Shown: positions 22,963-60,743 of the stretch, piece after piece
How positions within the stretch are numbered: the stretch's first letter is position 1
Layout: every line of letters begins with the position of its first letter
Source of the DNA: Caldifarciminota bacterium
GTDB lineage: Bacteria; Hydrothermota; UBA3072
Assembly: GCA_016930175.1 (NCBI GenBank)
Contig: JAFGHJ010000003.1
Location: forward strand, 124,001-188,000
Length of the DNA stretch: 64,000 nucleotides
Direction of reading: 5' to 3'
Notes under the pieces: model-generated
Databases searched by the model: none
The model's input: the letters and a program-made list of their open reading frames with translations, nothing else
Told to the model about the DNA's origin: nothing
Position numbers and translations under genes: made by a program

Positions 22963-23155
22963 CTATTTATCTCTGTGTGCTCCGTGTCTTTGTGAGAGAA
23001 TCTTTTTTTTGGGTTGTGAGATGGGTTTTAAACAACATATTTTTCTTTGTGTTCTCTGCGAGTTTTTTGTTTCTCTGCTTGCCCTGTGCAATGAATCAAC
23101 CAATTTTTTTATTTCACAGGGTGTCCTCTGTGTTTCAAAATTTGGTGGGGTGGTG
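22963..23155. repeat. long copy of the dispersed module before the aspartate kinase
   Basis: CTCTGTGTGCTCCGTGTC, TTTGTGAGAGAATC and GGGTTGTGAGATGGGTTTTA followed by AACAACAT and TTTCTTTGTGTTCTCTGCG line up with the 46860-46950 gap over more than 80 bases with few differences. An open frame crosses this block in phase with the kinase gene, but its codons follow the repeat words, so I treat the block as non-coding leader and repeat. Confidence 0.7.
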
Positions 23156-23159
23156 GCTC

Positions 23160-23187
23160 TTGACAACAAAGCTATTTTGTGTATCCT
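23160..23187 (+). promoter_or_regulatory. promoter of the aspartate kinase gene
   Basis: TTGACA (23160-23165), 16-base spacer, TATCCT (23182-23187), then ACGGAGGA and the ATG at 23207. It begins within about five bases of the end of the repeat block and decides that the coding region starts at 23207, not further upstream. Confidence 0.7.
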
Positions 23188-23206
23188 AATTTCAGACGGA
23201 GGATTG

Positions 23207-24601
23207 ATGTTAACTGTTGAAAAAATAGGTGGGGTTTCGATGTCGAAATTCCAGGACGTGTTAAAAAACATAATTTTGGGTAATCGTAAGGAAGGAGATT
23301 ACTACAACAGGATTTTTGTTGTCTCGGCTTACGCAGATGTGACCAATTGGCTTCTGGAACATAAGAAAACCGGCGAGCCCGGCGTTTATGTGAAATTCGC
23401 GAAACAGGAAAGTTATGATAGAGCTCTGGAGGAAGTTCTCGACAAATTACTGAAGATAAACAGGAATTTTATAGATATTGGATTGGATCTTGAAATTGCC
23501 GACAATTTTATAAAAAATCGCATTCAGGAAGCCAGAAATTATTTGCATAATATGGCCAATGTACTGGCTTCGGGATATCTTGATAGGGATAGTATTTTGC
23601 TCGCAGCGCGTGAAGTTTTGGCTTCTATAGGAGAGGCTCATTCGGCTTTTAACTCGGTAAATATTCTTGAGAATAATAATATTCATTCTACTTTCGTTGA
23701 TTTATGTGGTTTTGAAGATTCGGAATTATTGAGTATCGATGAAAGAATACATAGAAAACTAAAAGGAATAGATTTTTCTAAGACTCTGGCTGTTGTTACC
23801 GGATACACTAAAGGAACGGAAGGCATTATGAGGGAATTCGATAGAGGGTATTCCGAGGTCACTTTCAGCAAGGTCGCAGTCGAGGTGGGCGCAAAGGAAG
23901 CGGTAATTCATAAGGAATTTCATCTTTCTTCCGCCGATCCTAAAGTCGTGGGCGAAGATAAAGCAATTCCTGTCGGATTTACGAATTTTAACGTGGCGGA
24001 TCAGCTTGCGGATATAGGTATGGAAGCGATTCATCCGAAGGCTTCTAAACCGATAGAGATGGCAGGGATAAACATCAGGATAAAAAGCACTTTTGAGCCG
24101 GAGCATGAAGGGACTCTTATTTCGAAAAATTACGTGGGTGAGAGGTCAAGAGTGGAAGTGATATCCGGAAGCGATAAAGTGGTTGTTTTAGAAGTCCACG
24201 ATCCTCTTATGGTGGGTGAAGTCGGAGCCGACCTCGAGATAATGAAAATATTTAAAAAATATAAAGTCAGTTATATTTTAAAGGCAACGGACGCAAACAG
24301 CATATCGATGGTGATATGGGAGAAAGATTTAAGCGACGATTTAGTAAAGGAGTTGAAGGAGAAATACTATAGAATTACCGTTAAAAAAGTAGCTGTTTTG
24401 TGTGTGGTTGGTACCAATATCGCCAGTCCGGGGATTCTTGAGCGGACTACGAAATTATTGGCGGATAATAAGGTTAATATTGAGTGTGTTTCGCAGTCTT
24501 TACAGCAGGTTAATATGCAGTTTGTAATCAATAGAAAGGATTATAATAAAGCTGTTGTTGCCTTAAATGATGCGCTTTGCGTAAAGCCAATTGCAACTTA
24601 G
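23207..24601 (+). CDS. lysC: aspartate kinase
   Basis: 464 residues from the ATG preceded by ACGGAGGA. It phosphorylates aspartate, the first step to lysine, threonine and methionine. The N-terminus LTVEKIGGVSMSKFQDVL is the variant K-(F/I)-GG-(T/V)-S substrate motif; NRIFVVSAYADVTN and VTGYTKGTEG are kinase-core motifs; two C-terminal ACT-type regions (LEVHDPLMVGEVGADLEI and VAVLCVVGTNIASPGILERT) suggest amino-acid feedback. A longer frame upstream is repeat sequence with a promoter inside and is rejected as coding. No other aspartate-family gene is nearby. Confidence 0.93.
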   Translation: MLTVEKIGGVSMSKFQDVLKNIILGNRKEGDYYNRIFVVSAYADVTNWLLEHKKTGEPGVYVKFAKQESYDRALEEVLDKLLKINRNFIDIGLDLEIADNFIKNRIQEARNYLHNMANVLASGYLDRDSILLAAREVLASIGEAHSAFNSVNILENNNIHSTFVDLCGFEDSELLSIDERIHRKLKGIDFSKTLAVVTGYTKGTEGIMREFDRGYSEVTFSKVAVEVGAKEAVIHKEFHLSSADPKVVGEDKAIPVGFTNFNVADQLADIGMEAIHPKASKPIEMAGINIRIKSTFEPEHEGTLISKNYVGERSRVEVISGSDKVVVLEVHDPLMVGEVGADLEIMKIFKKYKVSYILKATDANSISMVIWEKDLSDDLVKELKEKYYRITVKKVAVLCVVGTNIASPGILERTTKLLADNKVNIECVSQSLQQVNMQFVINRKDYNKAVVALNDALCVKPIAT

Positions 24602-53073: not shown

Positions 53074-53541
53074 TTAGAAAATTCCGAATTTGAAACCGCC
53101 AGAAAGCCTGAGTGTGACATCTGTATCAACATCACCGGTTAAAATAAGAAGGCTGGGTTCAAGAAAGAGTTTATTCCCTTTTCCCAGAGATGCCTCATAA
53201 CCAGCTCCTCCCCCAAGTGTAACTATGGTGGTTACATCGCCCGCCTGCAGTCCAAAAATAAGATTCAGATATGAAATGATATCCGCAATGTTAGTATAAT
53301 AAAGAAGTTCCAAATTGCCTGGATGGTTGAGACTGAAAACCGTATAATCTCCAAAAATCAGTTCAGCAAGGTTAACCCTTATGCCAATTTTCTTTGTAGG
53401 ATTAGCTATAATGTCGGCTCCAATCCCAACATTTACGCTACTAATATAAAGACTTGCTCTTGGGGCGAGTTCAAGCTTCGGTCTTGCACTAAGGGGTAAA
53501 ACAACTAATAAGACTGCTAACAATAAAAATACTTTTTTCAT
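53074..53541 (-). CDS. small exported beta-barrel-like protein
   Basis: 155 residues from the ATG at 53541, chosen because the AAAGGAGG site precedes it; a start seven codons earlier would place that site inside the gene. A signal peptide (1-18, KKVFLLLAVLLVVLPLSA) is followed by alternating hydrophobic beta strands with Gly-rich turns (VTLGGGAGYEASLGKGNK) and a C-terminal Phe (GGFKFGIF), the features of a small outer-membrane barrel. No family is recognised. It has the best promoter in the window and a strong terminator, so high, single-gene expression is likely. Confidence 0.75.
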   Translation of the reverse strand: MKKVFLLLAVLLVVLPLSARPKLELAPRASLYISSVNVGIGADIIANPTKKIGIRVNLAELIFGDYTVFSLNHPGNLELLYYTNIADIISYLNLIFGLQAGDVTTIVTLGGGAGYEASLGKGNKLFLEPSLLILTGDVDTDVTLRLSGGFKFGIF

Positions 53542-53573
53542 TTGTTTCCTCCTTTTTTTCAAATGTTTCAGGT

Positions 53574-53602
53574 ATTATATGGATAACGGGAATAAATGTC
53601 AA
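53574..53602 (-). promoter_or_regulatory. full-consensus promoter of the barrel-like gene
   Basis: Minus-strand TTGACA (53602-53597), 17-base spacer, TATAAT (53579-53574): both hexamers perfect. The 5' leader is about 25 bases and contains AAAGGAGG. Confidence 0.85.
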
Positions 53603-53639: not shown

Positions 53640-53816
53640 AAGCTCTTTGCTTTTAGCTTAAAAAGGCACTGCGTCCACTGTGGTTAATATTTTAGTTAGG
53701 AGGTTGGGAAGTTAGAGGGTTAAAACAACAAAAAATCTCCGTATCCTCTGTGGTTCAAAACAAAATCTGAATCGGGGTGGGGTGTGACTTAGTGTCTTTG
53801 TGTCTTGGTGGCTAAT
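53640..53816. repeat. intergenic mosaic of dispersed modules (after the zinc-ribbon gene)
   Basis: GGCACTGCGTCCACTGTGG, a TTAGTTAGGAGGTTGGGAAG-type word, TCTCCGTATCCTCTGTGG, and at 53786-53816 the reverse complement of TTAGCCACCAAGACACAAAG followed by ACACTAAG. This last word starts right after the stop of the gene at 53819 in sense, like the copy at 27479. No gene is seen. Confidence 0.65.
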
Positions 53817-53818
53817 TT

Positions 53819-54538
53819 TCAGTTTTTTTCGAGTTTTGCCTTTATCTTTTCCCAGTCCTTCAATGCATTTTTAAAAATTTTATGTCCTTTTAAACCGTCC
53901 ACAAGCATCGCCCCTTCTTCGTAAAAGGGAATAGCTGCAATTCTGGCTTTTTCATAATAGAAAATAATATCCGCACCTTGAAGTCCCATTAATCCCTTAT
54001 CTGTGTGATATTGGATGGAAAGAAACATAACTTTTGCAAGTTCGACTGCGTCTTCCAGGGAGTATTCAGCTCCGACCATATCCTTGGGAGAATCGCTTTC
54101 AAGCTTTGGCGGCTTTACCGTAAATAAATATCCCGGCTGGTCCATTAATTGATAGCGGTTTGTAACGCCGAATGCAGGAACAAAAAACAACATCTTATCT
54201 ATAGGCTTTTCTTTTTTGAGAAGACCTGCAAGAAAACTCGTGAAACGGTCATTGCTTAAAATTTCCGGAGGAATTTGATTTATATCTATGTTAGGCTTCT
54301 TACTGATAGATATTTTGCTTAAAATCTGCCACATCGGTAGATAATATAATTTATTATTCGCAAATTCTTCTTTTGGCTTTACAAAAATGATATCCACTTT
54401 TTTAAATTTGTCCCGGGTAACCTCAAATCCCGAACCGCAGTTCGAGCAGAAATGGACAATGTCATCTTCTCCGCTTTCTATGTCGATTCCACAATCCGGA
54501 CAACGTAAAGGTATAAGTTTAATATCAGTCGTCGCCAT
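53819..54538 (-). CDS. zinc-ribbon protein of the SPFH cluster (no membrane helix)
   Basis: 239 residues from the ATG at 54538 (start of MATTDIK; an upstream frame extension would lie inside the previous gene). Zinc ribbon: Cys13, Cys16 (RCPDC) and Cys31, Cys34 (FCSNC). It then has two segments shared in pattern with its two upstream neighbours: KLYYLPMWQI, and RIAAIPFYEEGAMLVDGLKG. No membrane helix, unlike its neighbours. Family unknown to me; likely a cytoplasmic partner of the SPFH protein. It overlaps the preceding gene by 14 bases and ends the operon. Confidence 0.72.
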   Translation of the reverse strand: MATTDIKLIPLRCPDCGIDIESGEDDIVHFCSNCGSGFEVTRDKFKKVDIIFVKPKEEFANNKLYYLPMWQILSKISISKKPNIDINQIPPEILSNDRFTSFLAGLLKKEKPIDKMLFFVPAFGVTNRYQLMDQPGYLFTVKPPKLESDSPKDMVGAEYSLEDAVELAKVMFLSIQYHTDKGLMGLQGADIIFYYEKARIAAIPFYEEGAMLVDGLKGHKIFKNALKDWEKIKAKLEKN

Positions 54539-55463
54539 ATTGTAACCACCAGACGAAAAACCCGGTAAACAAAGCAAAGACAAAAGCAACTACGCCGTCT
54601 ACTAAAAAAGATATTAAAGAGACAATAATTCCGGATAAGCCAATGATACCGTATAATGCATTCAGTCCCAGGAAAACCTTTTTACTCTCGGCTTTTTTCT
54701 TTTTAGTTTTGTCTTTTACCAGGGCTTTCCCATCTACGGCATCAAAGGAATATGTGTAAAATTCCTGGCCGGATTTGACTCTCGCAAAATATATGGGGTT
54801 AAAATAAATGATTGCTTTTTTCTTTATTGCGCGCAGATAATATTCGAATTCATTAAAATCTCTATAATCTCTTATGATTTCGTCGATGAGCATATCCGAA
54901 GCTTTTTCCATATATTCTTTTATCGGTAAGGGCAAGTCAAAAACGTTTCCGTATTTATGAAGAGCTTCATCGTCGTAGACCTCGAATTTCTTCCCTTCCG
55001 TGCTCACTCTGTGTATCCCGTAACGGTAAAATTCGGAAGGGTCTAATTTGACTTCTAAAATACGCCTTACTCTCTTTTTGATTCTCTTTTCGCCAACCAT
55101 ACGGGGTGTACTCATTGTATCTATATTCATACCGGAGTCGGTATAAGTAGGTTCCTGCACAATAACACCTTTTTTATAACCTCCCAGCCAACCTATTATC
55201 TCTGAAGAAACCTTTATAAATGGGACATAAATAAGAGAAACATCAATGATATCTACGTTCATCCCGAATCTTTCCCTTAAAATGTTTTTAGGCTTGTCTA
55301 TTTTAGGTTTTGCGAAAACTCTCGGAGCTCCGATTTTATTTGTTATCAAAAGACTGCTATTACAGAACTTGCATTTTGTGGTTGTGTATCCTTCTGTTAC
55401 ATCGATTTCGGAACCGCAATTCGGACACGAAAAAGCGATGACAGCAAGCGTACTTTTAGCCAT
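54525..55463 (-). CDS. zinc-ribbon membrane protein of the SPFH cluster
   Basis: 312 residues: zinc ribbon Cys13, Cys16 (SCPNC) and Cys31, Cys34 (KCKFC); a central part with SLIYVPFIKVSSEIIGWLGG; IIYFNPIYFARV and SFDAVDGKALV; then a basic linker and two C-terminal membrane helices (~265-305). The N-terminal ribbon would face the cytoplasm. No annotated family is recognised, but the ribbon-plus-PF-plus-DG layout is shared with the genes on both sides. It overlaps both neighbours by 8 and 14 bases. Confidence 0.72.
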   Translation of the reverse strand: MAKSTLAVIAFSCPNCGSEIDVTEGYTTTKCKFCNSSLLITNKIGAPRVFAKPKIDKPKNILRERFGMNVDIIDVSLIYVPFIKVSSEIIGWLGGYKKGVIVQEPTYTDSGMNIDTMSTPRMVGEKRIKKRVRRILEVKLDPSEFYRYGIHRVSTEGKKFEVYDDEALHKYGNVFDLPLPIKEYMEKASDMLIDEIIRDYRDFNEFEYYLRAIKKKAIIYFNPIYFARVKSGQEFYTYSFDAVDGKALVKDKTKKKKAESKKVFLGLNALYGIIGLSGIIVSLISFLVDGVVAFVFALFTGFFVWWLQYGDD

Positions 55464-56118
55464 GGTGTTTTCCTTTATCGTAGTACCATAAAAGAGATGT
55501 AATAATAGCTACAGAAATCAGTCTAAACGGTAAACTGGGAAAAAATAAGGCTACAAGGACAATAATAGTAAAGGAAAGCAGGGCAAAAGTATGGTGATTT
55601 TTTCCACTTGTTTTTCCCCCTTCAATTCTATTAGAAAGGATATTTCCCCTTGCACCATCTACAAAATAAACCGCATTATCGTCTTTTGACGTGAAGAAAG
55701 GCAAATAAATGAGTCCGATAGATTCAATCTCTTCGCCTTCTTCTGTTTGTTGAAGTGCTTCTTCGACCGATAGATCCGGCTCGGGAACTTCAATTTCAAG
55801 AGTTATTCTATCTCCCTGAGGGATATAACTATTGATTCCTATTAAGTCGGTCTTTTTCCCGGGTAAGAAGATTGTCTGCTCGCGCATTTTTATTCGATAA
55901 AAGGGAAAATACTCAAGTTTCACCTTTAGTTTTTTACCTGATATATTATGAAGCAAACTTTCGGCTACGCGAGCATCGAGGGTGGGCTTTATAGATTCTT
56001 TTGTAAGTACTTTATCTTTTTCGTAATATAAATGGGTACTACAATACGGGCATTTTACAACTTTATGTTCTATCCCCGTTTTTATTACTGCATCACATTG
56101 AGGGCATCTGATTTCCAT
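55456..56118 (-). CDS. zinc-ribbon membrane protein of the SPFH cluster
   Basis: 220 residues: zinc ribbon Cys5, Cys8 (RCPQC) and Cys23, Cys26 (KCPYC); KLEYFPFYRIKMREQTIF; SIGLIYLPFF followed by VYFVDGARGNIL; and two membrane helices at the C-terminus (~178-212). The order of elements equals that of the two downstream genes, so these are probably diverged paralogues. The role resembles B. subtilis YdjG, a zinc-ribbon membrane partner of an SPFH protein, though homology to YdjG is inferred only from layout. Confidence 0.72.
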   Translation of the reverse strand: MEIRCPQCDAVIKTGIEHKVVKCPYCSTHLYYEKDKVLTKESIKPTLDARVAESLLHNISGKKLKVKLEYFPFYRIKMREQTIFLPGKKTDLIGINSYIPQGDRITLEIEVPEPDLSVEEALQQTEEGEEIESIGLIYLPFFTSKDDNAVYFVDGARGNILSNRIEGGKTSGKNHHTFALLSFTIIVLVALFFPSLPFRLISVAIITSLLWYYDKGKHHG

Positions 56119-56132
56119 TCAAATCAGATATT

Positions 56133-57167
56133 TTACTGTTTTTCGCCGCACTCAGGGCAGAATTGTGCCCCTTTTGGTATTTCTTTACCGCACTTTTTGC
56201 AGAATGCTTTTTCTCCCAACTTTGTTCCGCAATTAGGACAGAATTTTGAATTTAAAGGTAACGGCTTACCGCATTCAGGGCAGGACTCTCCCGAAAGGTT
56301 TGCTTCCCCTCCTTTTCCTTCTCCGGTGGCTTTCTGCATCATACCGGGTATCATAGCTCCCATACCGATACCGGCTCCAACACCAACACCCGTTCCTGCT
56401 GCACCGCCTTCAGCCGAGGCGGCATCCCTGAGAGCTTTCGCTGCCTGGAACTGTGTAAATTGGTTTAAGTCTCCGACGACACCCATACCGGAACGCTCGT
56501 CTATCATTTTTTGAACTTCCGGAGGAGGTGTTATCGACCTTATGTAGAAATCTCTCAAGTCAAGCCCATACTTATCGAAATCTTCATAAATTCTGGATTT
56601 GGCACCTGCGGAAAGTTCGTCATAATCCTTTGCGAGATCAAAAATGGTAGAGTAATTCTCTCCCAAGAAGTCGGTCAGTCTTGAAATTACAACATTCTTA
56701 AAGAACTCCTCTACTTCATTTCTGTCTTTTATATTCTCGGTACCTACAATTTTATTTATAAAAAGACGCGGGTCGGAAACCTTATATGAATAGATACCGT
56801 TCGCTCTTATTCTTATCATTTTGAGTTCTTTGTCTCTAAACGGAATAGGTTCCTGAGTTCCCCATTTTGCATTTGTGAAGACTTTATTGTTTACAAAGTA
56901 AACTTCAGTACGAAAAGGACTTTTACCTTCGAAAGCGGCGCCTATCAATTTCTTTAAAAGAGGAAGGTTTGCCGTAGTCAGAGTGTGTCTTCCCGGGCTA
57001 AAAGTATCAAGAGCTCTTCCGTCACGGAAGAAAACAGCTGATTGATTTTCTCGGACGATTAGTTGGCTGCCGATAGAAGTTTCCGCAGAACCTTTTTCGG
57101 GTACTCGGTGTACGATTTCCCTTCCTTCATCGTCTAAAAATTCTATAACTTCGAGAAATAATCCCAT
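56133..57167 (-). CDS. SPFH-domain protein with C-terminal double zinc ribbon (YdjI-like)
   Basis: 344 residues. The SPFH/virion-core-type domain covers ~1-240 (GSQLIVRENQSAVFFRDGRA, FSPGRHTL, WGTQEPIPFRDKEL, DLRDFYIRSITPPPEVQ). A Gly/Ala/Met-rich linker (~255-285) follows, then two zinc ribbons (CPECGKPLPLNSKFCPNCG and CKKCGKEIPKGAQFCPECG). This matches the YdjI family, which in B. subtilis works with the PspA homologue YdjF and YdjG/YdjH in membrane stress. No PspA is in the window. It is encoded between a helical protein and three zinc-ribbon proteins. Confidence 0.88.
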   Translation of the reverse strand: MGLFLEVIEFLDDEGREIVHRVPEKGSAETSIGSQLIVRENQSAVFFRDGRALDTFSPGRHTLTTANLPLLKKLIGAAFEGKSPFRTEVYFVNNKVFTNAKWGTQEPIPFRDKELKMIRIRANGIYSYKVSDPRLFINKIVGTENIKDRNEVEEFFKNVVISRLTDFLGENYSTIFDLAKDYDELSAGAKSRIYEDFDKYGLDLRDFYIRSITPPPEVQKMIDERSGMGVVGDLNQFTQFQAAKALRDAASAEGGAAGTGVGVGAGIGMGAMIPGMMQKATGEGKGGEANLSGESCPECGKPLPLNSKFCPNCGTKLGEKAFCKKCGKEIPKGAQFCPECGEKQ

Positions 57168-57168
57168 T

Positions 57169-57642
57169 TTAATCCCCCTCTAAGATTTTTGAGCGTTTTG
57201 CTAGTAAATTAAATCCAGCCTCTATATTTCCAGAAATTTCCGCAAGCTCGGTATCTACGGTAGAATTATCCGTAAAATTCTTGACCCACTCCATTAAACT
57301 TAAATCAGCCTCATAAATAGAGCGAAGAGTATCTAAAGAGATTTCTTTCTGGTCGAAAAAACCGCTATAACCGTAATTCGCATATAAGATTGAATCGCTT
57401 AATTTTTCCAAATTTTTATCAATCCTTGCTATTTCGTCGAGAGGACTGAGATCGCCGGATTTTGTAACCAATCGTCCTTTCTCGTTTAGGACATCTTTAA
57501 TAGCTTTAAGTTTTTTCGCAATTTTTTCCCGGATTAGCTGGTCGTTTTCTCTTCGTTCTTCTTTCTTATAATAACCCTTGAATCCCGGAATGCTTTTAGC
57601 TATCCTATCTATCCATTTCTTAAAAGCCTTTTCCTCGCTAAT
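57169..57642 (-). CDS. helical protein of the SPFH cluster, apparent ATT start
   Basis: The reading frame is open with clearly protein-like sequence (KKWIDRIAKSIPGFKGYYKK, ERRENDQLIREKIAKKL, then a long helical C-terminus) from just after the DUF4870 stop at 57661 down to 57169, but the first ATG/GTG/TTG codon is a TTG at 57471, in the middle of the conserved part. A GTGAGG ribosome site is five bases before an ATT codon at 57642, which I take as the start (157 residues). Alternatives are readthrough of the DUF4870 TAA, which is in the same frame, or a sequence error. I recall similar helical proteins beside SPFH genes elsewhere, from memory only. Confidence 0.6.
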   Translation of the reverse strand: MSEEKAFKKWIDRIAKSIPGFKGYYKKEERRENDQLIREKIAKKLKAIKDVLNEKGRLVTKSGDLSPLDEIARIDKNLEKLSDSILYANYGYSGFFDQKEISLDTLRSIYEADLSLMEWVKNFTDNSTVDTELAEISGNIEAGFNLLAKRSKILEGD

Positions 57643-57660
57643 AATAACCTCACTCTTGAT

Positions 57661-58002
57661 TTAAATTTTAAATTTTTCCGACAACTGGTATATACCGAGA
57701 GGAGCCTTCCAGTAGTTGCCGGAGAGGGATTGAACAATGCCTATAATCGATATGACAGCTATAGCTAAGAACGCTAAAGAGTCGAGTACACTTATAAAAG
57801 GGCTTATAATTGAAACAGCTATCCATAACCCTAACAATACTATACCCTGCTTGGCGTGGTGTTTGCAGAAAGTGTTTTCAGGCTTCACCAGTAATGGTAT
57901 TAAAAGCAATAATCCCAGATAAGACAACCATGCTATACTTTTTCCGTCATCTATGTCCTTTTTGCTTGCTTTTATTTTAGTTTTTTTATCTTCATCACTC
58001 AT
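57661..58002 (-). CDS. DUF4870-family membrane protein
   Basis: 113 residues: charged N-terminus, then three membrane helices with the family blocks SIAWLSYLGLLLLIPLL and FCKHHAKQGIVLLGLW. DUF4870 proteins are small membrane proteins of unknown function. A GGGAGG site precedes the ATG. It is the first gene of the SPFH cluster and its stop codon is in frame with the next gene. A promoter lies 20-50 bases upstream. Confidence 0.85.
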   Translation of the reverse strand: MSDEDKKTKIKASKKDIDDGKSIAWLSYLGLLLLIPLLVKPENTFCKHHAKQGIVLLGLWIAVSIISPFISVLDSLAFLAIAVISIIGIVQSLSGNYWKAPLGIYQLSEKFKI

Positions 58003-58072: not shown

Positions 58073-59011
58073 CTATTTCCCGTCTTCCGAGAATAAAGGC
58101 AATATAGTTTCCACCCGGGAAGGGTCATCAAGCAAGTTTTTTATATTTCTTATATTTTCTCCCACATGATTTAGCCTGAACTTGAAAAGAAATATAATAT
58201 GTATTATAATAAAACCGTAAAGAAGAATTTGTTTTAAATTCATAGGAAATGCCATACGCGGTTTTTTAGCAAAAGTCTTTTTGCGCGTCTTAATTTTTCC
58301 TGTACCTTTCCCTTTTTCTAGAAGCCCGATTTCGGTAAGCTTATAAACCGAATTGTAAGTCCTGAATTTTCCGATTCCCGATATTCCTACCAATTCATGT
58401 AAAGTAATATCCTCTGTAATTTTTTCTAATATAGTTTTTTCATCTTCTCCTATTTCCACATTAATTTCTGGCTTTTCGAGCTTCCGCAGGGTAATGTTTT
58501 CATCAGGTAAAGCTTTTTCTATCAAGGGCCATTCGTCTATTCTTCTTATACCCTCCATAACAAGAGTATTAGGTTCTATCTCGACAGAAAATGCAGAATG
58601 TTGATATAGTTTCTTCCCTGCTTCAAAGGAATATCTGCCTTCGTTCCATGTCAAGACTTCACAGGTTGTTTCCTGGATTTTGAAAGCTATTATCTCTTCT
58701 ATGTTCTTTTTAGATAAAAAGTCTCCCTTCTCGACGATTTCCAGGAAAGAAAGCCCTGCTTCTTTGGCTCTTTCCATATACTTATTGAAGGTATCGGGAG
58801 GAATCAGTCCTGTTCTCTGGACATATTCGCTTATAGAATGGAAAAGTTTTTCTCCCTTGTGAAGAGCATCTGTGATTTTTCCCCTTTTGAATCCAAAATC
58901 CACTTCCTCCCTGCCCGATTTAAGTTTGAGTACTCCATCTGCTTCATGCAGGGATAAAAACTGTAATATTTCAGGAACAGAGAATTCCTGTATACTACCT
59001 TCCATTTCCAT
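58073..59011 (-). CDS. DUF4388 (PATAN) protein with C-terminal membrane helix
   Basis: 312 residues: N-terminal DUF4388 domain (EGSIQEFSVPEILQFLSLHE, VDFGFKRGKITDALHKGEKL), a helical middle, a winged-helix-like segment (TLHELVGISGIGKFRTYNSV), then one membrane helix (~265-283) and a short outside tail. A signalling or adaptor function is likely, matching the DUF4388 response regulator at 19868-20674. It is last in the operon with the TPR protein and lipoprotein, overlapping the TPR gene by 17 bases. Confidence 0.8.
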   Translation of the reverse strand: MEMEGSIQEFSVPEILQFLSLHEADGVLKLKSGREEVDFGFKRGKITDALHKGEKLFHSISEYVQRTGLIPPDTFNKYMERAKEAGLSFLEIVEKGDFLSKKNIEEIIAFKIQETTCEVLTWNEGRYSFEAGKKLYQHSAFSVEIEPNTLVMEGIRRIDEWPLIEKALPDENITLRKLEKPEINVEIGEDEKTILEKITEDITLHELVGISGIGKFRTYNSVYKLTEIGLLEKGKGTGKIKTRKKTFAKKPRMAFPMNLKQILLYGFIIIHIIFLFKFRLNHVGENIRNIKNLLDDPSRVETILPLFSEDGK

Positions 59012-60743
59012 ACGGCTCTAGCCTCCAACTCGAGTATAGTAACAATGAATAAAATATTATAAGAGAAATGATGAAGATTCCGTTTCCTATAGAAGTTCTG
59101 TATTGTAAAGATTCTTCAACGTTAAAGAATACAGAATTAAGAAAGATTAAAAGGAAAATAGCTGCGATAAAGCTAAATGTCATTCCCTCAAAATGCCTCT
59201 TTTTGTAAAAATGAGCACTTCCCGGAATTATCAGACTCATTAGTATGTTTGTAATTTTATCAACTTTAAAGGCTTTTGCTGTTATACGTCTTTTAAGTCG
59301 CTCTCTTATACTTTTCGATTTTGTCAACGAAAGCTTTGTAATGCATGATATGCACATATTTTCCTGGCTGTTATCAATCAACATCAAACCTTTACAAATT
59401 GGACAGTATTTCTCTTTTTCTTTTTTAAAAACTGACATTATAGCAATACAAATTCCTATGAGTATCATGATATATAGATTTTTGCCTGCGAGATGCTTAA
59501 ATAAACCTCTGGGAACAAAAATATACTTATAGAGCCATCTTTCGGGCGGATATTTGTATAAAGGTATCTCTTTTCGCGAAATTTCAAGAAGTTGGATTCC
59601 GCTTTTTTTCATTTGATTCGTTGCGTCGTCAAAGTTGAGTTCATCCAGGTGGATTTTAATAATTGTAATATTTGCTATCTCGTTTTTCGGGTAATGAGAG
59701 AGAATATTTTCACACATGTTAATAGATCGAGCCGTATCTCCTTCGGCATAATAAACGGAACATAAGTTCTCCAAGTAGGTTACATCTCTTCTTATATTAT
59801 AACCTTTCCCAAGAAGCTCTTCAGCCTCGGATAAATTCCCCTTTTTGGCTTGTTCAATTCCTTTTACTAAGTATCCATAAGGCGTCACCGGAGAATCAAG
59901 TTCGTAAGAATAAGGATTTAAGCGGGTTTTAAATTCTTTGTAAATAGAACTACGCGGATTAAAATTATTGCTTAAAATATATGAGTATGAGACGAAAAAG
60001 GGAAGTAGAATTAAAAAAGTCGCACATTTGATTAGATTGGGTTTATTCATTTTTATCAAGGACATTGCTACAAGTATGAGGAAGACAATTTGTATAGGTA
60101 GCCACACAAATAGGGCGAATAATATGGCTCCAATCCATAATCCGCTAAAATTGATTTTTGTTTGCAACCATTTTGTGAGATAGCTGACAAAAGACGTAAT
60201 ACTAGCCCCGACTGAAGACATTATAATCCAAAAAGAGAATAGGATTAAAAACAATATTAAAAATTTTATCAAAAAAACTTTATTATTTAGGAACTTGACA
60301 GTCAAAATATAGTTCCATAAGTGTTTCGTCGTTCCAATTGGGTTTGGAAATTTTGATTTAGCCATTGTTAGGGGTATGCGTCTATTTGATGGATCAAGAT
60401 TACCCGCAAATATCAGTTTTCTTTCTCCTTTTTCTTTTATTCCTTTTTTAAGATCTTTTATTCCCGCCTTTAAGTATTTATTAGCAAGTTTAGAATTTAT
60501 ATAATTATTACCCTTCTGTATAACTTCTATCAGTTTGTTTTCCGTAATTTCACTTTCTTTGAAATTTCCCTTTGATAGTAAAAGAGAATCTAACCGGTAA
60601 AGTTCTTCTATGGAAGAAGCATTAGCTATTGAGCTCTTAAATGATACTTGAATGGTTTTTTCCGGGGAGCTTTCAGCCGATGTGAATTTATTGCTTGTAT
60701 TGCTTTGTCCTATAAGAGATAGGGTTAATACGAAGAATATCAT
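58995..60743 (-). CDS. TPR-containing polytopic membrane protein with zinc-knuckle
   Basis: 582 residues: a cleavable or anchoring N-terminal hydrophobic segment, an external helical region, a cluster of membrane helices (~150-255), a TPR-like stretch (YLVKGIEQAKKGNLSEAEEL, SVYYAEGDTARSINMCENIL), a helix, a four-cysteine element (CPIC...CISC), and two or three terminal helices with SLIIPGSAHFYKKRHFEGM. That last block is typical of small TM2-like or zinc-ribbon membrane proteins. Function unknown. It overlaps the lipoprotein by four bases. Confidence 0.7.
   Translation of the reverse strand: MIFFVLTLSLIGQSNTSNKFTSAESSPEKTIQVSFKSSIANASSIEELYRLDSLLLSKGNFKESEITENKLIEVIQKGNNYINSKLANKYLKAGIKDLKKGIKEKGERKLIFAGNLDPSNRRIPLTMAKSKFPNPIGTTKHLWNYILTVKFLNNKVFLIKFLILFLILFSFWIIMSSVGASITSFVSYLTKWLQTKINFSGLWIGAILFALFVWLPIQIVFLILVAMSLIKMNKPNLIKCATFLILLPFFVSYSYILSNNFNPRSSIYKEFKTRLNPYSYELDSPVTPYGYLVKGIEQAKKGNLSEAEELLGKGYNIRRDVTYLENLCSVYYAEGDTARSINMCENILSHYPKNEIANITIIKIHLDELNFDDATNQMKKSGIQLLEISRKEIPLYKYPPERWLYKYIFVPRGLFKHLAGKNLYIMILIGICIAIMSVFKKEKEKYCPICKGLMLIDNSQENMCISCITKLSLTKSKSIRERLKRRITAKAFKVDKITNILMSLIIPGSAHFYKKRHFEGMTFSFIAAIFLLIFLNSVFFNVEESLQYRTSIGNGIFIISLIIFYSLLLYSSWRLEPYGNGR

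Follow-up and report, generated by a model that had tools for sequence, protein, structure and literature searches.

Open reading frame (ORF) inspection of a 64,000-nucleotide stretch of a Caldifarciminota bacterium genome (contig JAFGHJ010000003.1; hereafter the window) revealed six genes on the minus strand at 53819-58002, with short gaps or small overlaps between neighbours, exactly where the initial annotation had placed a packed six-gene cluster. From 58002 towards 53819 the order is DUF4870-like, helical, SPFH with a C-terminal double zinc ribbon, and three zinc-ribbon genes named ZR1, ZR2, and ZR3. The DUF4870-like gene (57661-58002) encodes a small membrane protein of 113 aa with hydrophobic segments at residues 22-40 and 72-90. 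The helical protein (57169-57642; approximately 157 aa) consists of an N-terminal amphipathic helix and a helical bundle. The SPFH/Band_7_1 protein (56133-57167; 344 aa) carries a Gly/Met-rich linker and the double zinc ribbon. ZR1 (55456-56118; 220 aa) combines a zinc ribbon, two helix/hairpin units, and two C-terminal hydrophobic helices. ZR2 (54525-55463; 312 aa) has a zinc ribbon and one or more C-terminal transmembrane (TM) segments, including a TM-like stretch at 279-297, and ZR3 (53819-54538; 239 aa) likewise has a zinc ribbon. ZR1 and ZR2 overlap by 8 nt, and ZR2 and ZR3 by 14 nt, with ZR3 starting at the ATG at 54538. By hydrophobicity, TM segments occur in the DUF4870-like protein, ZR1, and ZR2 only, and not in SPFH, the helical protein, or ZR3.

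For the helical gene we adopted the limits 57642-57169 rather than those of a 100-aa ORF starting at TTG, because the frame is open past this codon up to an ATT at 57642-57640, shortly after a GAGG Shine-Dalgarno motif, and because this ATT aligns with the initiator methionine (MSLEES) in relatives. The probable start, ATT, is a very rare start codon.

Searched against Pfam, the SPFH protein matched Band_7_1 (PF13421) over model positions 2-211 of 211 (E = 1.3e-60; 205 bits, cut-off 24), and its C-terminus matched DZR (PF12773) at residues 296-341 (E = 6e-12), in agreement with the earlier description of this protein. All eight cysteines of the double ribbon were invariant among relatives. The window's DUF4870-like protein scored 12.1 bits against DUF4870 (PF09685), under the Pfam cut-off of 25; the label, also taken from the initial annotation, is kept in the form DUF4870-like because orthologues in relatives exceeded the cut-off (26.6 bits in L029 and 29.1 bits in L129). 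For the helical protein, ZR1, ZR2, and ZR3, no Pfam or NCBIfam model matched above cut-off. The ribbon proteins had been described as belonging to no recognised family, and they did not prove to be known enzymes.

Nearly all helical members (50 of 51) showed a weak match to the Leptospira family NF047596 LIMLP_15305 (best E = 5e-17) in profile comparison. The window's protein scored 25.4 bits against an equivalog cut-off of 210 and is thus not a member. Its AlphaFold2 model (pLDDT 85, pTM 0.80) showed a less certain N-terminal helix and four longer helices. In most of 49 members the N-terminal helix was strongly amphipathic, with a mean moment of 0.58 compared to 0.31 in shuffled sequences. 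No PDB fold matched the model at E≤0.001. Kinship with PspA and the PspA/ESCRT-III superfamily was considered and found no support, either in profile comparison (hhalign E = 0.35, probability 0.2) or in this fold search.

Judged by their sequence profiles, ZR1, ZR2, and ZR3 are paralogues. Cross-phylum profiles aligned ZR1 with ZR2 over 241 columns (hhalign E = 7e-28) and ZR1 with ZR3 over 150 columns (E = 1.4e-9), and the CxxC pairs were invariant in ZR1 (20 sequences) and likewise in ZR2 and ZR3. The AlphaFold2 model of ZR1 (pLDDT 84.9 overall, with values >90 for the core and lower ones for the ribbon) is built of a ribbon, a pair of helix-plus-hairpin units, and two helices at the C-terminus. 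Since the two units align to each other (hhalign E = 2e-5), ZR1 probably contains an internal duplication. Compared with the PDB at E≤0.001 the ZR1 model gave no match; weak CYTH/TTM-like matches with a TM-score of approximately 0.25 were not meaningful. A PepSY/YpeB-like second half of the ZR proteins had been considered by eye, and no such Pfam family was listed for 20 ZR1 and 15 ZR2 members.

Conservation within the phylum was assessed in 147 genomes, including that of the window (G000; 2.34 Mb, 94% complete). The order helical-SPFH-ZR1-ZR2-ZR3 was kept in three genomes of the same family (G002, G003, and G004) and in one from another family of the same class (G009), where the ribbon proteins share approximately 30-35% identity. 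Two genomes of another family in the same order (G006 and G007) contained SPFH-ZR1-ZR2-ZR3 on contigs cut within SPFH, and in G007 a second contig ends in the helical gene and the start of SPFH. The same-genus genome G001 holds the complete cassette except for the helical gene. Flanking genes differed: a DUF4388 protein and a TPR protein in the window and G001, folC (by eye) upstream in G003, and a DUF1015-like gene (by eye) 3' of ZR3 in G002, G004, G005, and G006. Because the order holds while the flanks differ, what is conserved is the cassette itself rather than a wider stretch of chromosome. Its gene order is found again in other genera, families, and phyla, with protein identities of 15-80%, and chance clustering was rejected on this ground; the initial annotation had named conservation of the order in relatives as a check. 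The proposed six-gene system was a coherent conserved set, but DUF4870 preceded the cassette only in the window's family (the window, G001, G002, G004, and the decayed G005, not G003). DUF4870 was therefore rejected as a core part, leaving a five-gene core with a local addition. In G005 (L129:4421-5922) DUF4870, a helical fragment, and ZR3 are left, and SPFH, ZR1, and ZR2 are gone; this apparent internal deletion represents either real decay or assembly collapse.

Two further families (f9 and f7) have the helical gene before SPFH and no ribbon genes after it. A genome search with ZR3 showed that the same genomes have a ZR1-ZR2-ZR3 operon at another place, complete or as far as the contig reaches. 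Across the phylum set SPFH, helical, and ZR3 are hardly ever found without each other: 13 genomes gave strong matches for SPFH, 12 for helical, and 14 for ZR3, and 12 have SPFH and ZR3 together (hypergeometric p ~1e-14, before any phylogenetic correction). As the carriers are related, independent support comes from recurrence in separate families (f1/f2/f4, f7, and f9) with different linkage. The exceptions were G005, G025 (77% complete, SPFH not found), and G145, in which a small ribbon TM protein follows helical-SPFH. At this last locus (L135) the ribbon TM protein has 117 aa and is followed by a 549-aa secreted or membrane protein without Pfam match, possibly a variant of the module.

A scan of GTDB genomes with the SPFH alignment as query yielded 80 loci which, being selected by SPFH similarity, show the surroundings of this SPFH clade and not its frequency. 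Their titles include Acidobacteria, Aminicenantes, Fermentibacteria, Coatesbacteria, Geobacter, Zixibacteria, Myxococcales, Caldisericaceae, Bacillota, and others. The helical gene was present at 70 of the 80 loci (7 without it, 3 cut by a contig edge), at a median distance of 10 bp from SPFH and within 150 bp in 66 of the 70. Acidobacteriota also keep the full helical-SPFH-ZR1-ZR2-ZR3 order, and the complete triad lay 3' in 17 loci, including Holophagae, Thermoanaerobaculia, and Geobacter. At seven loci a single fused protein of 436-474 aa joined a ZR1/ZR2-type unit (residues ~9-235) to a ZR3 unit (~255-450). Among genomes without an adjacent complete triad, a ZR1 profile search matched in 32 of 50; these comprised approximately 7 with adjacent fused or partial genes, some with members of a general two-ribbon family (~360 aa), and approximately 10 with separate ZR operons. 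A further phylum sample added more helical-SPFH pairs and no ydjGHI operon: the helical gene was near SPFH in all nine inspected loci with a strong SPFH match, in four of them not immediately adjacent or oddly overlapping. The cassette thus comprises two separable modules, a conserved helical-SPFH pair and a ZR1-ZR2-ZR3 triad that is either linked to it or located elsewhere in the same genome.

PspA and the TPM protein YdjH, two marks of a B. subtilis-type PspA-YdjGHI system, had been noted as absent near the cluster. Profile searches of the window's genome detected neither PspA (PF04012) nor TPM (PF04536); TPM was found in 8 of 14 control genomes. PspA was above cut-off in 8 of 50 carrier genomes and missing from 42, as opposed to 9 positives among the 14 controls with the same search. 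Incompleteness of metagenome-assembled genomes could hide single cases of PspA, but it cannot account for 42 of 50.

The closest known counterpart of the cassette's SPFH protein is the soluble SPFH protein YdjI of B. subtilis, whose membrane foci need the membrane proteins YdjG and YdjH; YdjI is required to place PspA at the membrane, and its loss changes fluidity (PMC8581546). YdjG contains two ribbons, a YpeB-related domain, and a TM segment, and its SPFH partner a band-7 domain and a C-terminal ribbon (PMC11237479). The cassette shares with pspA-ydjGHI a compact operon in which a soluble SPFH protein with a C-terminal ribbon lies beside ribbon-bearing membrane proteins, but it has three ribbon paralogues instead of one, an added helical protein, and, in the window's family, DUF4870. 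The "different composition" proposed earlier is correct as regards the lack of PspA and TPM and the presence of the helical protein, but overstated for the ribbon proteins, since their ribbon, small domain, and membrane anchor resemble the reported layout of YdjG (PMC11237479). We conclude that the cassette lies outside the PspA-YdjGHI system, yet plausibly works like its YdjG-YdjI part. A literature search found no paper describing this gene set in the library covered.

Two other arrangements are comparable. In flotillin operons with NfeD/YuaF, which PMC11237479 mentions, an SPFH protein also has a dedicated membrane partner, but the SPFH subfamily is another one, and the cassette has ribbons instead of an NfeD-like gene. 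Other Band_7_1 proteins, including the SPFH of a Paracoccus SPFH-ribbon pair, share the SPFH family and a small C-terminal adaptor; in Paracoccus, however, the adaptor differs and both the helical partner and the ZR triad are missing. By eye (L128, L127, L040, and L041) the adaptor varies by lineage between double ribbon, GYF-like (Paracoccus and Bacteroides), and SHOCT-like forms. The Paracoccus two-ribbon protein (L128:5127-6413), encoded after SPFH and near a toxic-anion-resistance gene, is related to ZR1 (E = 2e-24). Several genomes have two-ribbon proteins like it, of 360 aa, and these seem to make up a large family for which Pfam has no model.

With a probability of about one half, we interpret the cassette as encoding an SPFH complex that is recruited to the membrane and does without PspA, and that varies the SPFH and zinc-ribbon arrangement of B. 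subtilis YdjGHI. ZR1 and ZR2 would reside in the inner membrane with their ribbons in the cytosol, and ZR3 would join them. Together the ZR proteins would serve as docking sites for the C-terminal ribbons of soluble SPFH and bring its oligomers together at the membrane. The helical protein may bind SPFH as its proposed partner, its N-terminal amphipathic helix helping SPFH to engage or remodel the membrane, and would so take the place that PspA has in B. subtilis. DUF4870 would be a local extra membrane part. By analogy, the complex probably helps to keep the membrane or envelope intact, or suitably fluid, under stress; a role in the envelope, in a microdomain, or in stress, as suggested in the initial annotation, likewise draws on the parallel with B. 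subtilis YdjGHI (PMC8581546).

Several observations weigh against this interpretation. The substitution for PspA is only positional, as the helical protein is not detectably related to it; the likeness of the ZR proteins to YdjG is one of reported domain layout; and neither the ZR1 nor the helical model matches a solved fold. The fused ribbon proteins are without TM segments, and hence ribbon proteins do not serve as membrane anchors everywhere. At many helical-SPFH loci a neighbouring ribbon gene is missing, and the ZR1 profile found no ZR1-like gene in 18 of the 50 genomes without an adjacent complete triad. The helical gene is itself missing from Geobacter (L056 and L061) and Zixibacteria loci and from G001. 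Its absence from G001, together with the apparent ATT start in the window, suggests that this genus may be losing or down-tuning it.

A stronger reading, for which our confidence is lower, is that of a distinct cross-phylum membrane system in which the co-travelling helical-SPFH pair and ZR triad work without PspA, the helical protein stands in functionally for PspA, and the helical family and the duplicated domain of the ribbon proteins are undescribed. The SPFH-ribbon principle is already known; of most interest are the constancy of the helical partner and the fact that the triad can be separate. SPFH proteins organise membranes in all domains of life, yet the recruitment of soluble ones is understood in few bacteria. 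The occurrence of the pair and the triad in many uncultured phyla, usually without PspA, provides parts with which membrane maintenance without PspA can be tested, and it places in a genomic context protein families whose present annotations are hypothetical or uninformative ribbon names.

Four other explanations were weighed. SPFH proteins such as HflK/C act as quality-control platforms, and a prohibitin/HflKC-like SPFH oligomer could cage or steer a membrane protease or chaperone, with the ribbon proteins as adaptors for substrates or partners and membrane integrity affected only indirectly. An AAA_5 (MoxR-like) ATPase gene lies directly 3' of ZR3 at L085:9634-10512 and similar Acidobacteriota loci, in favour of this explanation, but it is confined to those few loci, the conserved cassette contains no protease gene, and three other Band_7 proteins in the window's genome could serve FtsH. 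We consider a quality-control platform unlikely. A regulatory module, with nucleic acid bound by the zinc ribbons and signals passed to transcription by the membrane-tethered proteins, appears more doubtful still. Among the top ribbon profile matches are RNA polymerase subunit P and TFIIB-type ribbons, with low scores, and the YdjG ribbon has been suggested to bind DNA (PMC9239133). These matches are generic, however, no member has a helix-turn-helix or known DNA-binding domain, and three ribbon paralogues plus the ribbons of SPFH itself fit protein-protein contacts better.

The remaining two explanations we regard as very improbable. SPFH-ribbon pairs are known partners of PspA (PMC8581546, PMC11237479), so the cassette could belong to a classical phage-shock system with PspA encoded elsewhere in the genome; the PspA searches described above, negative in the window's genome and less often positive in carriers than in controls, speak against it. 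An anti-phage or biological-conflict system would agree with the modular composition and with the patchy distribution in the phylum (~13 of 147 genomes), but PADLOC gave a single marginal match (ZR2, E = 0.007), the loci examined sit among housekeeping genes and not in defence islands, and no effector domain was found.

Promoter and terminator scans of the locus gave no signals above those of shuffled sequence. The intergenic stretch 3' of ZR3 (53650-53820) contains 'CACCAAGACACAAAGACACTAAG'-type repeats; a spurious ORF near 22963-23271 seems to be due to a stretch of similar kind. Just after the cassette, a perfect sigma-70-like consensus (TTGACA-17-TATAAT, 53574-53602) is located upstream of a small outer-membrane-like gene (53074-53562). 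On the other side, at 58073-60743 upstream of the cassette, are the genes for the DUF4388 protein and the TPR protein, the latter with a zinc ribbon. Judged by eye, the separate ZR operons of family f9 (L130-L132) also have relatives of both nearby, which may be what is left of a former linkage.

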